Source of the DNA: Bacillota bacterium
GTDB taxonomy: Bacteria > Bacillota > Limnochordia > DTU087
NCBI GenBank assembly: GCA_012799135.1
Contig: JAAZLW010000111.1
Span: forward strand, 1 to 36,160
Direction of reading: 5' to 3'
DNA length: 36,160 bases
Shown: one piece after another, positions 19,867 to 35,738 of the stretch
How the letters are laid out: each line of letters begins with the position of its first letter
Position numbering within the stretch: the stretch's first letter is position 1
Notes under the pieces: model-generated
What the model was told of the DNA's origin: nothing
Seen by the model: only the letters and a program-made list of their open reading frames with translations
Databases searched by the model: none
Made by a program: the position numbers and the translations under genes

Positions 19867-19902
19867 GTACGGTGATGGACCTGGTCCCGTATTTCAGAAG
19901 CA

Positions 19903-19920
19903 CTGACTTATATTAGTCAG
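19903..19920. promoter_or_regulatory. Dyad with 6-bp arms in the barrel leader
   Basis: CTGACT and AGTCAG are perfect complements around TATATT. The central AT-rich part could be a -10-like box overlapped by an operator, but no -35 box is clear. Confidence 0.3.
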
Positions 19921-19985
19921 CAGGTATCTCTCTGGACAAGTCATCAAGTTTTATCATCTGGCCTAATTGGTTAGGCAGGGAATGA

Positions 19986-19996
19986 GAAAGGAGGTG
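19986..19996 (+). promoter_or_regulatory. Leader block B: orphan GAAAGGAGGTG
   Basis: The same 11-mer occurs at 21711-21721 in the second leader. In both cases CAACC and then TTTGGC follow within about 15-30 nt. It is an ideal ribosome site with no long gene after it, so it may start a short leader peptide, act as a standby ribosome site, or belong to an RNA fold. Confidence 0.4.
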
Positions 19997-20210
19997 AAAC
20001 AACCCTAAGTGCCCTGTTTGGCAATGGCTAGATGGTAAGAAACGCAGCATCATATGCAGCCAGGTGGGAACTAGTGAGGAAACATGGATACTCATAAGAA
20101 CCCCCAAGACGCACCACAAGATGCAGCCCATATAGCAAGTAGTTGAAATGAACACAGTCTAGTCACAGTAAGAATCCAAAACGCTAAGTAAGACTTAGGG
20201 GGATAAACAG

Positions 20211-21389
20211 ATGAAGAAACTAGCTATAGCTCTTGTAGCAGCATTAGTACTCGCTCTAGCGGCCCCGGCCCTAGCAGCCGATATCAACCTCGGTGGCTCG
20301 CTGGAAACCCGCTTCAACTTCGGGCCTAAGCAGACTGAGGAGCCCTGGAAAGACTGGGGTATCGAAGCTGACAACGGCATGTCCATGAAGCTGGACGTCA
20401 ATGCCGGTGAGAGAATCCGAGTCGGTCTGGAGTTTGGTGAGCAGAAAGTCGGACTGGATGACGATGATGAACTAACTGATGGCCATGACGATGTAAATGG
20501 TACTGAACTGAACATCGCACTCGAGAAGGCTTATATGGAGACCACCGGCGCTTTCTGGAACGGCGGCCCCGAACTGGTCACCACAGTTGGCGACATCGAT
20601 GTAGACTTCAACGATTATGTTGCCAACCTCAGTGATAGCAATGGTATCAAAGTTGAGGGTATCGAAGTTGGTCCCGTCAATGCCAGAGCCTTCTATGCTT
20701 GGGATCAAGCACAAGCAGGTGCCGCGGTTGACACAGCTTACGCAGACATCGACCTAGGTGCAGCCATTGTTACCGATGGTGAAAACATCGAGGCTGCCGG
20801 TAGCGCCGGTACCGAGATCTCCGGTGTCAAGGTGAAGGCAGAGGCCGCTATAGATGAAAATAGCAACTTTGCTTACAAACTGACCGGTGAAACCGAGCTT
20901 ATGCCCAACGTTACCGTTAAGGGCGGCTACCGTGACTCCGAGAGCTTCAACAGCAAGAACGCTAAGCTGGACGACGGAGATCCCGTTGCTTATGACAATC
21001 ACAAGGGCTTCAATGTGGGCCTAGCCACTACCCAGTACGGTATTGACATGGAAGCCAACTATGATCAGCCCAAAGAGGAAGTCACTTTCTCTGCTGATAA
21101 GGACCTAGAACTCGCAGGTCTCAACATCAAGGGCGAATATGATGCCAAGTATGCAAAAGACCAAGCCATCGAGCACAAAGTTAAGGTAACATCACCCTTG
21201 GACTTGGTACCTCAGCTACAGGGTCTAGAACTCAGTGCTGGTGCTACCATTAACAAGGATAACACCGAAGGCGAAAATAGCTGGAACGTAGGTGCTGATT
21301 ACGAAGCTCCTAACGGAATTAACGTCGGTGCCAAATACCACTCCAATGATGGCCCCTCCGCATACGCTGGCCTCAAAGTCGAGTTCTAA
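20211..21389 (+). CDS. Secreted beta-barrel (porin-like) protein 1
   Basis: The protein has 392 residues and a clear Sec signal peptide (KKL, hydrophobic core, cleavage after APALA, residue 22). The mature part opens with LGGSLETRF and consists of alternating polar/hydrophobic stretches with Gly/Asn/Asp turns, such as VTVKGGYRDS and INVGAKYHSNDG. It ends in LKVEF, so the last residue is Phe, the hallmark of barrels assembled by BamA. It is acidic and Cys-free. No SLH or peptidoglycan-binding domain is present. An outer-membrane porin-like role is inferred; a surface-layer or secreted beta protein is the alternative. A paralogous-looking gene follows. Confidence 0.65.
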   Translation: MKKLAIALVAALVLALAAPALAADINLGGSLETRFNFGPKQTEEPWKDWGIEADNGMSMKLDVNAGERIRVGLEFGEQKVGLDDDDELTDGHDDVNGTELNIALEKAYMETTGAFWNGGPELVTTVGDIDVDFNDYVANLSDSNGIKVEGIEVGPVNARAFYAWDQAQAGAAVDTAYADIDLGAAIVTDGENIEAAGSAGTEISGVKVKAEAAIDENSNFAYKLTGETELMPNVTVKGGYRDSESFNSKNAKLDDGDPVAYDNHKGFNVGLATTQYGIDMEANYDQPKEEVTFSADKDLELAGLNIKGEYDAKYAKDQAIEHKVKVTSPLDLVPQLQGLELSAGATINKDNTEGENSWNVGADYEAPNGINVGAKYHSNDGPSAYAGLKVEF

Positions 21390-21405
21390 TCGACAATCAA
21401 CCTCA

Positions 21406-21434
21406 AGCCCCTGGCTCACGCCGGGGGCTTTCTT
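21406..21434 (+). terminator. Intrinsic terminator of barrel gene 1
   Basis: AGCCCCTGGC (21406-21415) pairs with GCCGGGGGCT (21420-21429) through a 10-bp stem with one G-U pair and a TCAC loop. TTTCTT ends it. Confidence 0.85.
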
Positions 21435-21875
21435 GATCCTCTGGCCAAGTTCGCCTTTTTTGTGGAAAGAGCTCTTACACCTGAAGGAACAATGTATAGT
21501 CTACCAGAATAGAGAATATAGGGAAGTAGAGAGCTATCTGCGACCCATCCGGTTAACCAAAGGGTTACCCGGAAACTGACATCCGGCAGAAAAATTTCCA
21601 AGTCACAAGAAGGAGTTTGGTGGGTAAGAAAGAATACATCACCAGAACCCTTGATTTACTGTTTCTACTTATTGATTAAGGTGTCTATGATTCCCGGAAG
21701 GGCTTGGTGTGAAAGGAGGTGCACCCAACCAGTTTGGCCAAGACCTCAAAGGGGGAAAACATAGAGGTGTGGTAAGTGATACGAGGAGAAAAAGGAAACA
21801 AGGAGACTTTTTCTACCCCTCTTTCACATGCTACATCAGCAATGGATTGCGAAGACAAACTGAGGGGGATATCAA
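21435..21875 (+). other. Long non-coding leader of the second barrel gene
   Basis: About 440 bases without a supported gene. It contains block A (21522-21544), an imperfect hairpin around GGTTAACC/GGGTTACC (about 21549-21571), and block B GAAAGGAGGTG (21711-21721). The final AGGGGG site precedes ATG 21876. The arrangement parallels the leader of barrel gene 1. A 56-codon frame from GTG 21709 ends across the barrel start codon but has no recognisable product. Confidence 0.5.
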
Positions 21876-23330
21876 ATGAAAAAAGCACTAGTAATGACTC
21901 TGATCATGGTGTTAGCCGTGGCAGGGATAGCATCCGCTGAGGCTAAACTCGGCGGCAGTTTCAAAGTTGAGTATGTAGTTGATACCGACAAGGATAATGC
22001 CGGGAAAGGCAGTGCAGAAGCTCCTCTTACCCTAACGGTAACTGCTGAAGAGGAAGGGGTTTGGAGCGTTAGCGCAGACCTCGAGGCTGATGCAGCTGAT
22101 GGTGATACAACTGTTGAAGTTGGCGATTGGTCGATGAATCTTACCGATGATCTCTTTGTGGCTGACCTTTGGGGTGGCGGTGTAGAGAAAGATGGTATCG
22201 GTACTCCGCTAGATTTCGTAGCCACTGAGGATGACGTGGCTGCTGGACCCGAAGGTGCTCATTTACGGGTTACCAGCGACGTCCTTGGCTACGTTGATCT
22301 TACCCTGGACTATGATCCCGATGAGTTGTTTGTATTTGCTAGCAAAGCTCTGAACGACATCACTGTCGGTGGAGCTATTCAGAAGGATCTCACCACTGAG
22401 GGAGTATTGGCAGCAGTTCATGGCGAGTATGTCTTTGGTGCTGCTACTCTTACCGGTGAAGTCGGTATGGACACTGCCGAGGAAGACGAAAACTTCATGG
22501 GCGGTGGCAAAGTCAGCTACAAGCTCAATGATCAGATTACACTGAAGGGTAAGGCCACGTACAAGGCTAAGAATATCGTTAAGGATTACGGAGAGCTTCT
22601 GTTAGAGGCCGGTGCTGATTATGTTGAGGATTTGTTTAAGGTCACTGGAACTGTAACCATGACAGACGATCTCGACTATGACGATACTAAGGCAACCTAT
22701 AAGATCAAGGCTAACGTGACCTATCGGACTAACGAAGATGTGGCGTTTGGCGACCTCTTCGATGATTATGATACTTTGACAGGCTATGCGGCCTTTGCTG
22801 AGGCTGCCTATACGACAGCTAAGGACTTTGGCGACGACCTGGAGCCGGTAATGGAAGCGACCCTCAAGGGCGCTGGCGTGGCGGTACCTGATATGGTTTG
22901 GGTATATGGTGAGCTAAAGTATAAGTCTGATGAAGACACGTTCAAGGATGATTTCAAGTTCATCGATGAGCCAACTCCGGACGCAACCGTTAAGGTACCT
23001 TTGAAGGTAGAGAACTATCTCAAGCTGAAGGCTGAAGGAACCGTGCGGCTGACTGACAAGGTCAAGGTCATACCTGCGATTAAGTACGGCCAGTGGACCA
23101 CTGTCAAGGCTAACGTTGCCGATGATGCGAAGGAAGAGGTCAAGAACTATGCGGCGTTCACCGCAGAAGATCAGAACGAGCTAGACCTATCCGCCGCTAT
23201 GACCTACGATTTATCCGATAGCTCTGAAGTCGGTGTATCCTATACTTACCGCACTCAGAAGTTTACGGAAGCATCAATCGAACAGCTTGATGACAGTTTT
23301 GCCAAGGTATACTTCAAGACTAGCTTCTAA
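21876..23330 (+). CDS. Secreted beta-barrel (porin-like) protein 2
   Basis: The protein has 484 residues, with a signal peptide (KKALVMTLIMVLAVAG, cleavage near ASA or AEA, residue 21-23). The mature start, KLGGSFKVEYV, resembles that of the first barrel (LGGS). Long amphipathic beta stretches with acidic turns follow, such as ITLKGKATYKAK and VGVSYTYRTQKF. The last residues, KVYFKTSF, again end in Phe. It has no Cys, SLH or other anchoring domain. By the same reasoning as its neighbour it is probably an outer-membrane barrel, perhaps a porin. Each of the two genes has its own terminator, so they are separate transcription units with similar leaders. Confidence 0.65.
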   Translation: MKKALVMTLIMVLAVAGIASAEAKLGGSFKVEYVVDTDKDNAGKGSAEAPLTLTVTAEEEGVWSVSADLEADAADGDTTVEVGDWSMNLTDDLFVADLWGGGVEKDGIGTPLDFVATEDDVAAGPEGAHLRVTSDVLGYVDLTLDYDPDELFVFASKALNDITVGGAIQKDLTTEGVLAAVHGEYVFGAATLTGEVGMDTAEEDENFMGGGKVSYKLNDQITLKGKATYKAKNIVKDYGELLLEAGADYVEDLFKVTGTVTMTDDLDYDDTKATYKIKANVTYRTNEDVAFGDLFDDYDTLTGYAAFAEAAYTTAKDFGDDLEPVMEATLKGAGVAVPDMVWVYGELKYKSDEDTFKDDFKFIDEPTPDATVKVPLKVENYLKLKAEGTVRLTDKVKVIPAIKYGQWTTVKANVADDAKEEVKNYAAFTAEDQNELDLSAAMTYDLSDSSEVGVSYTYRTQKFTEASIEQLDDSFAKVYFKTSF

Positions 23331-23348
23331 GCCAAGCTGAAGCAATAG

Positions 23349-23383
23349 CCCCAGGGGTTCAGCCCCTGGGGTTTTCTTTTTTT
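23349..23383 (+). terminator. Strong intrinsic terminator of barrel gene 2
   Basis: CCCCAGGGG (23349-23357), loop TTCAG, CCCCTGGGG (23363-23371), then a T-rich tract (TTTTCTTTTTTT). It is the strongest terminator in the window. Confidence 0.95.
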
Positions 23384-23753: not shown

Positions 23754-24863
23754 ATGGCAGGAGTTACACTGCAAAATGTTACAAAAAGGTTCGGCAATGT
23801 TATAGCTGTTAATAATGCATGCTTGGAGATTAAGGACAAGGAATTCATCGTACTGGTAGGTCCCTCTGGTTGTGGGAAGTCCACCACTTTGCGAATGGTG
23901 GCAGGCCTGGAGGAAATCACTGAGGGTACTATTTTGATTGGTGATACAGTTGTGAACGATATTCCGCCCAAAGACCGGGATATCGCTATGGTTTTCCAAA
24001 ACTACGCTCTATATCCCCATATGGATGTCTACAACAACATGGCCTTTGGTTTGAAGCTCCGCAAGTTCCCCAAGGCCCAGATTGACCAGAGGGTAAAAGA
24101 GGCAGCCCGCATGTTGGGAATCGAGAATCTGCTCGATAGGAAACCCAAGGCCTTGTCCGGTGGTCAGAGACAGCGTGTAGCCGTAGGACGAGCTATTGTG
24201 CGAGAGCCAAAAGTGTTCCTTATGGACGAACCTCTGTCGAACCTTGATGCCAAACTGCGTGTGCAGATGAGAGCTGAGCTATCGAAGCTGCATAACCGTC
24301 TGCAAACCACGATCATCTATGTTACCCACGACCAAACAGAAGCGATGACTATGGGTGACCGGATTGTGGTTCAGAAAGATGGATTCATCCAGCAGGTAGG
24401 TGCTCCCCTGGAGATCTACAATCGCCCGAATAACATCTTTGTGGCTGGCTTTATTGGCAGTCCGGCGATGAACTTTATGGATGTCATCCTGCGTAAGGAT
24501 GGAGACAACTATGTCGTAGATGGTGGCGACTTTAAGCTGACTATAGACCCGGCGAGAGTAGCCCAGTTCAAGAACCTAGGTAAATATGTCAATAAAGAAG
24601 TAGTTCTGGGTATCAGACCTGAGGACATTGAGGATGCTGCATTGGCGACGGAGGTAATGGAGACATCTTCCATGACAGCAATGGTCGACGTCACCGAACC
24701 TATGGGTGCGGAGATCTATTCCTACTTTTCCGTAGGTCGTCACAGCTTCATCGCTAGACTAGATCCTACAACGAAGGCTGCTGACGGTGAACCGCTGAAG
24801 GTAACGCTGAACATGGGTAAGATTCATCTGTTCGACAAAGATACTGAGCTTACGATTCAGTAA
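23754..24863 (+). CDS. ugpC: UgpC/MsmX/MalK-type sugar ABC transporter ATPase
   Basis: A 369-residue ATPase of the carbohydrate-uptake type. Walker A is GPSGCGKST (36-44), the Q-loop is in VFQNYALYPHM, the signature is LSGGQRQR (about 135-142) and Walker B is FLMDEPLSNLD. The switch His is in VTHDQTEAM, and a C-terminal TOBE/MalK regulatory domain (about 235-369) follows. No permease or sugar-binding gene lies nearby, so it may serve several transporters, as MsmX does in Bacillus; this is inference. GGAGG precedes the ATG. It lies just after the two barrel genes but is separated from them by a strong terminator. Confidence 0.93.
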   Translation: MAGVTLQNVTKRFGNVIAVNNACLEIKDKEFIVLVGPSGCGKSTTLRMVAGLEEITEGTILIGDTVVNDIPPKDRDIAMVFQNYALYPHMDVYNNMAFGLKLRKFPKAQIDQRVKEAARMLGIENLLDRKPKALSGGQRQRVAVGRAIVREPKVFLMDEPLSNLDAKLRVQMRAELSKLHNRLQTTIIYVTHDQTEAMTMGDRIVVQKDGFIQQVGAPLEIYNRPNNIFVAGFIGSPAMNFMDVILRKDGDNYVVDGGDFKLTIDPARVAQFKNLGKYVNKEVVLGIRPEDIEDAALATEVMETSSMTAMVDVTEPMGAEIYSYFSVGRHSFIARLDPTTKAADGEPLKVTLNMGKIHLFDKDTELTIQ

Positions 24864-35711: not shown

Positions 35712-35738
35712 TTAGCACTCGCGGATGGCGAGTGCTAA
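35712..35738. promoter_or_regulatory. CIRCE element (HrcA operator)
   Basis: TTAGCACTC (35712-35720), nine bases, GAGTGCTAA (35730-35738): a perfect match to the consensus inverted repeat. HrcA bound here represses groESL and is relieved by heat or unfolded protein. It lies 38 bp before groES. Confidence 0.97.

Follow-up and report, generated by a model that had tools for sequence, protein, structure and literature searches.

A leader RNA precedes the genes for two porin-type outer-membrane proteins, omp1 and omp2, and is found again before ompM on another contig of the same genome; this shared leader, not the porins, is the finding of note. The window (the whole stretch of 36,160 nucleotides analyzed here) carries both porin genes. 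The explanation that best joins the evidence, and one that we hold with good confidence, is that OMP1 and OMP2 are porins without SLH domains in an LPS outer membrane and that their mRNAs have, in common with ompM, a leader built of three parts, named E1, P1, and E2. The leader was unexpected and is added here to an initial annotation of the same DNA, which had missed it. Its existence and its association with outer-membrane protein genes are well supported.

A leader common to outer-membrane protein genes

Family alignments show striking conservation upstream of both omp1 and omp2. E1, GAAAGGAGGTG, is complementary to the 3' end of 16S rRNA and lies 160 to 220 nt before the start codon, and E2, GGNAACANGGNNAC, follows 70 to 110 nt past E1 as a hairpin with the loop GAAACAWGGNNA. 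Both elements recur class-wide before proteins that are often only 30% identical. P1 is a pairing of the segment just past E1 with the start-proximal ribosome site and the bases preceding that site; the site itself varies unusually little, reading GGGGG in 87 of 101 leaders. All parts of the two window leaders lie on the + strand. In the omp1 leader, E1 spans positions 19986 to 19996; the 5' arm of P1, CCCTAAGT, at 20003 to 20010 is complementary to ACTTAGGG at 20193 to 20200, with co-variation across leaders; the E2 hairpin, TGA-GGAAACATGGATAC-TCA, with its co-varying stem and conserved loop, is at 20075 to 20094; and the 3' arm of P1 at 20193 to 20202 overlaps the start-proximal ribosome site AGGGGG. 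In the omp2 leader, E1 is again GAAAGGAGGTG (21711 to 21721), the 5' arm of P1, CCCAACCAGTTTG (21724 to 21736), is complementary to CAAACTGAGGGGG at 21856 to 21868, the conserved E2 hairpin, GAAAAA-GGAAACAAGGAGAC-TTTTTC, likewise has a co-varying stem (21788 to 21813), and the 3' arm of P1 (21856 to 21868) overlaps the site GAGGGGG. E1 was placed by family alignment and class-wide conservation for omp1 and by conservation and the strict search pattern for omp2, and each leader is a two-element match where 0 were expected in the window. A further hairpin, CTGACT..AGTCAG, at 19902 to 19921 on the 5' side of the omp1 leader is conserved in six related genomes.

A strict two-block pattern gave 66 matches in 40 of the 73 genomes of the class, compared with 0 for a reversed-pattern control, and a relaxed pattern gave 84 matches in 46 of the 73; the other 27 have no exact match, and some of them carry diverged copies. 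In the source genome, the relaxed pattern matched exactly three times, at omp1, omp2, and the ompM gene on contig C311. Every class match with readable downstream sequence precedes OMP1, OMP2, another Phe-ending barrel, or OmpM. Across the phylum, 37 of 399 genomes matched, and 23 of the 24 matches read outside the class lie before a gene for an outer-membrane barrel or for OmpM; the sole exception precedes a ribosomal L6-like gene and is probably due to chance. One genome outside the class has three tandem small porin genes with a complete leader before each (locus L192, 1 to 5001). Letters named in the search pattern are conserved by construction, and the structure tests described below do not rest on them. 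Rfam had no match above the gathering threshold for the window and nine further leader loci, and nothing meaningful at E values up to 10 for the omp1 and omp2 leaders; a search of the open-access literature found no paper on such a leader. The shared leader is thus a previously uncatalogued RNA element, and its distribution hints at joint control of outer-membrane proteins at translation.

Base pairing in E2 and P1 was examined by shuffling and partner swapping. Among 52 distinct leaders, 243 of 312 E2 stem cells were paired, compared with 185 ± 6.5 on arm shuffling, and in an alignment of 41 leaders the E2 covariation score was 0.374 versus 0.179 for shuffled arms, a value reached in 0 of 500 shuffles. 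The stem is UGAG/CUCA-like in omp1 leaders and AAAAAG/CUUUUU-like in omp2 leaders, with the same loop in both. RNAalifold recovered only the three inner E2 pairs in a diverse leader set, as the sequence in between could not be aligned. P1 pairs as CCCUAAGU/ACUUAGGG in omp1, CAGUUUG/CAAACUG in omp2, and elsewhere as CUCAGU/ACUGAG, GGUU/AACC, and others. Its mean duplex energy was -14.6 kcal/mol with the own partner, compared with -12.2 kcal/mol once partners were swapped (z -11, 0 of 100), and -14.3 versus -11.3 when paralogues at the same locus were swapped; control segments preceding E1 and preceding E2 had no pairing effect. By group, the P1 signal was strong in OMP leaders (z -10.9) and marginal outside the class (-2.1), and it fell short of significance in OmpM leaders alone (-1.1), the last partly because CCC/GGG (CCCC/GGGG) hardly varies there, and these permutation scores, like the others given here, are inflated by the relatedness of the sequences. 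With P1 folded, the spacing from E1 to AUG has a median of 11 nt (interquartile range, 9 to 14) and is 18 nt in the omp1 leader of the window. The segment after E2 also showed pairing with the start site over the leaders (z -7.8); in the window, C-rich stretches past E2 at 20100 to 20105 and 21815 to 21820 are complementary to the start-proximal G-rich site, and they may form an alternative pairing.

The porins and their diderm genome

OMP1 (392 amino acids; 20211 to 21389, + strand) and OMP2 (484 amino acids; 21876 to 23330, + strand) occupy the positions first assigned to them, and their sequence features bear out the initial annotation. Both have a Sec-type signal with AxA at its end, read from the sequence and kept in homologues, and a mature start with LGGS (INLGGSLETRF in OMP1 and AKLGGSFKVEY in OMP2). 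Both lack Cys, as do 29 OMP1 and 16 OMP2 homologues, and both end in Phe, a feature that extends through the family (F in 29 of 29 OMP1 homologues, aligned over an identity range of 28 to 90%, and F or Y in 16 of 16 OMP2 homologues). Among the open reading frames of the window, only these two combine a signal peptide with a C-terminal aromatic residue. The alternating beta pattern that had been noted was also recovered: a two-residue hydrophobic alternation score lay 6.5 (OMP1) and 6.2 (OMP2) z units above shuffles; eleven further proteins of the window scored -1.7 to 2.3, and the BamA barrel encoded in this genome scored 3.5. Homologues occur in 57 (OMP1) and 23 (OMP2) of 101 related genomes; contigs were scanned for OMP1 relatives with a closer subset of the alignment, the full OMP1 alignment being too diverse to serve as a query. 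On the evidence of a profile comparison (match 98 to 99%), the two proteins are paralogues.

The barrel prediction that had been proposed as a check gave a usable model for one protein of the two. AlphaFold modeled OMP1 as a 22-strand meander (pLDDT 74), and the best Foldseek matches of this model were porins (OmpU, MOMP, and OmpM1; E values 1e-8 to 1e-6) at low TM-scores of 0.25 to 0.51; the model thus supports a porin-type fold for OMP1, with a barrel that may be closed. The OMP2 model was of low confidence (pLDDT 48) and not usable for a fold search, and a barrel is predicted for OMP2 only indirectly. Neither protein itself had a significant Pfam match, and a profile search of solved structures gave nothing useful. 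Porin_4 was, however, matched by 14 of 29 OMP1 homologues and 3 of 16 OMP2 homologues (best E values, 3.8e-8 and 2.2e-9), and NF033939 (Desulfo porins) matched OMP1 at 2.3e-6 over residues 1 to 138, with 26.6 bits against a cut-off of 250. The window proteins resemble the Porin_4, OMP_b-brl, and NF033939 porins through some of their homologues and through this partial match, yet differ in having no significant Pfam match of their own and in falling far under the NF033939 cut-off. The missing OMP2 model and the low TM-scores for OMP1 would also suit secreted beta-rich proteins that are not barrels, such as S-layer components; this we consider very improbable, as the C-terminal Phe is invariant, homologues match Porin_4, OMP_b-brl, and SlpA barrel models, and the alternation of both proteins exceeds that of BamA. 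OMP1 and OMP2 form a new porin family, but of a kind already known and in a lineage whose diderm nature is established, and as such are moderately interesting.

Most of 32 loci, drawn from many families, share the gene order uvrA-uvrC-DUF2089-DUF4097-SHOCT-holin-HAD-OMP(s)-MalK-type ATPase-mazEF; the OMP genes, one or two in number, occupy a constant position in it, and the ATPase gene lies on either side of them. In the window, a likely intrinsic terminator (12-pair stem and T tract; 23347 to 23382, + strand) follows omp2, and the gene for the MalK/MsmX-type ABC ATPase (23754 to 24863, + strand) has the Pfam domains ABC_tran and OB_MalK; it adjoins OMP1 or OMP2 in most of the 32 loci. Because of this conserved neighbor, we would guess that OMP1 and OMP2 are nutrient channels, perhaps for sugars, with the MsmX-type ATPase helping import. 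Contamination as the origin of the window is unlikely because its gene order and 70 to 96% identity along its length match a related genome, G003. Those of the Gram-positive-type neighbors listed by the initial annotation that were checked were confirmed: a perfect CIRCE element at 35712 to 35738, GroES, MazF/PemK, LCP, and DAP dehydrogenase.

The source genome, a 3.1-Mb draft in 362 contigs with 6.7% contamination, was examined by family and pattern searches. It holds the cluster tamB-bamA-ompH-ompH-like-ompH-lpxD, with a BamA that has POTRA repeats and matches Omp85 at 2e-55, and a second cluster of msbA-like, lpxB, lpxI-like, lpxA, fabZ, lpxC, lptA/lptC-type, and lptD-like genes. LpxA, LpxB, LpxC, LpxD, FabZ, and the LptA/LptC-type proteins were assigned by Pfam. 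The Pfam LptD model PF04453 had no match in the source genome; the LptD-like protein of 758 amino acids in the lpx/lpt cluster (L085, 14519 to 16795, - strand) matches LptD_N weakly (3e-4) and was assigned by length and position. Thus, the bamA, lptD, lpx, and OmpM genes that had been proposed as a check are all present, lptD in this LptD-like form, and with BamA, TamB, OmpH, Lpx, and Lpt genes in place the earlier suggestion of a diderm Firmicutes is borne out: the source is a Bacillota diderm with LPS, probably of the Limnochordia, the class in which GTDB places metagenome-assembled genomes of this kind. Diderm Limnochordia have already been described (PMC11456536, in a passage citing Taib et al. 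2020). Three further Omp85 proteins in the genome are near-identical two-partner secretion transporters of the ShlB/FhaC type (L002, 1106 to 2653, - strand; L077, 1536 to 3083, + strand; and L078, 3533 to 5068, + strand); each directly precedes its own OmpH/Skp-like gene, and two of the three have long repetitive exoprotein genes before them.

No SLH match was found in OMP1, OMP2, or their homologues, and the proposal that the tether of the outer membrane must be sought in other proteins holds, with SLH proteins on contigs C311 and C52 of the source genome. The C311 protein has a signal, SLH, and a long coiled coil, and it is truncated by the end of its contig just where the barrel starts; in G003 and G005, its relatives continue into the barrel and end in F, the G003 homologue having 1,057 amino acids and a barrel ending in KFEF. 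With SLH-barrel OmpM proteins in the genome, OmpM is likely the tether. OmpM in Limnochordia has already been published (PMC10628300). Like the OmpM proteins of Negativicutes and other diderm Bacillota (PMC10628300), OMP1 and OMP2 are outer-membrane proteins of porin type with a C-terminal Phe, and ompM of this genome family has the same mRNA leader as omp1 and omp2; they differ in lacking the SLH domain and the coiled-coil stalk, and no profile similarity between the OmpM and OMP1/OMP2 barrels was detected with an OmpM alignment that is thin. A second protein with an SLH-like domain and a Porin_4 barrel, on C52 (L105, 1222 to 2709, - strand), has neither coiled-coil stalk nor leader RNA. A conserved protein found at L087, L106, and in relatives combines a signal and a single SLH with a long coiled coil, which leads into a transmembrane-like helix in place of the barrel, and is possibly a second wall-binding envelope protein.

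How the leader may act

From what was computed (the protein family, the genome context, the association of E1 and E2 with OMP genes only, and co-variation in E2 and, for OMP genes, in P1), we infer how the leader may work, as a split or standby site with a trans-acting regulator at E2. Since the segment after E1 co-varies with the GGGGG site, E1 may fold beside the AUG or act as a standby site. In the former case, the P1 helix would fold E1 to about 11 nt from the AUG, and 30S subunits would load on E1 as part of a split ribosome-binding site. In either case, a trans-acting regulator would bind E2 and set how much outer-membrane protein is made. The proteins OMP1 and OMP2 would be exported through Sec and presumably folded by BamA. 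We favor this split site tentatively, as a reading whose chances we put near the middle, since the folded median is close to the value for T4 gene 25, in which structure shortens the Shine-Dalgarno-to-AUG spacing from 27 to 11 nt (PMC3014915). The leader is like the split sites of T4 genes 25 and 38 (PMC3014915) in having RNA structure, here predicted, that shortens the spacing between a distal Shine-Dalgarno sequence and AUG; it differs in its loop of about 150 to 200 nt with a conserved hairpin, in a helix that covers a second ribosome site, and in recurring throughout a functional class of chromosomal genes. That P1 instead blocks the proximal site and E1 serves as a standby site is possible, if somewhat doubtful. 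E1 was also considered as the ribosome site of an upstream open reading frame and rejected, since start codons show no enrichment: 2 of 110 leaders have an ATG within 14 nt, and start codons of any kind numbered 29, versus 36 expected.

The remaining readings differ mainly in what they make of E2. The leader could be a translation enhancer only, with E1 as a standby site, constantly high output of abundant proteins, and no regulator; ribosome standby sites are established (PMC3936740), E1 is a full 16S complement without a start codon, and P1 covers the proximal site. We rate this as conceivable short of probable, as it leaves unexplained an invariant E2 loop under a variable stem that is common to unrelated genes. 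The same conserved loop and variable stems, together with a long-range helix over the start-proximal site, might be expected of a metabolite riboswitch or a small-RNA binding site, which we think unlikely; a metabolite aptamer would be expected to have a larger conserved core, and Rfam has no matching family. CsrA-regulated leaders exist, for example that of Bacillus hag, and resemble the present one in carrying an ACANGGA-like motif in a hairpin loop ahead of the gene for an abundant surface protein. Repression of OMP mRNAs by CsrA bound at E1 and E2 would draw on ACAWGGA in the hairpin loop, which resembles CsrA sites, and on csrA itself, which the source genome carries, as do 65 of the 73 genomes of the class. 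It is doubtful because GGA is not invariant: 21 of 108 leaders have C, T, or G as the base after GG, among them that of ompM in the source genome (AAGGTCA). In addition, the hexaloop lacks its usual C-G closing pair and the sites lie far from the start codon, and we regard CsrA as an improbable regulator here.

Outer-membrane control in diderm Bacillota

Published work centers on OmpM as the tether of the outer membrane, and the common leader suggests that one post-transcriptional regulator links the tether and the porins. It is a tentative proposal, one that may well be right or wrong, that the RNA element defines an outer-membrane protein regulon in several diderm Bacillota lineages through a long-range split site and a looped-out, regulator-binding hairpin in porin and ompM mRNAs; if so, tether and channels would be set together at translation. 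The leader, a short RNA motif whose background is close to nil, is also a genomic marker of major outer-membrane genes in uncultured lineages. If the link to a regulator is true, coordinated control of the outer membrane, and its loss in monoderm relatives, would become testable in cultured members. How the outer membrane is controlled and maintained in diderm Bacillota bears in turn on the origin of Gram-positive cell envelopes.
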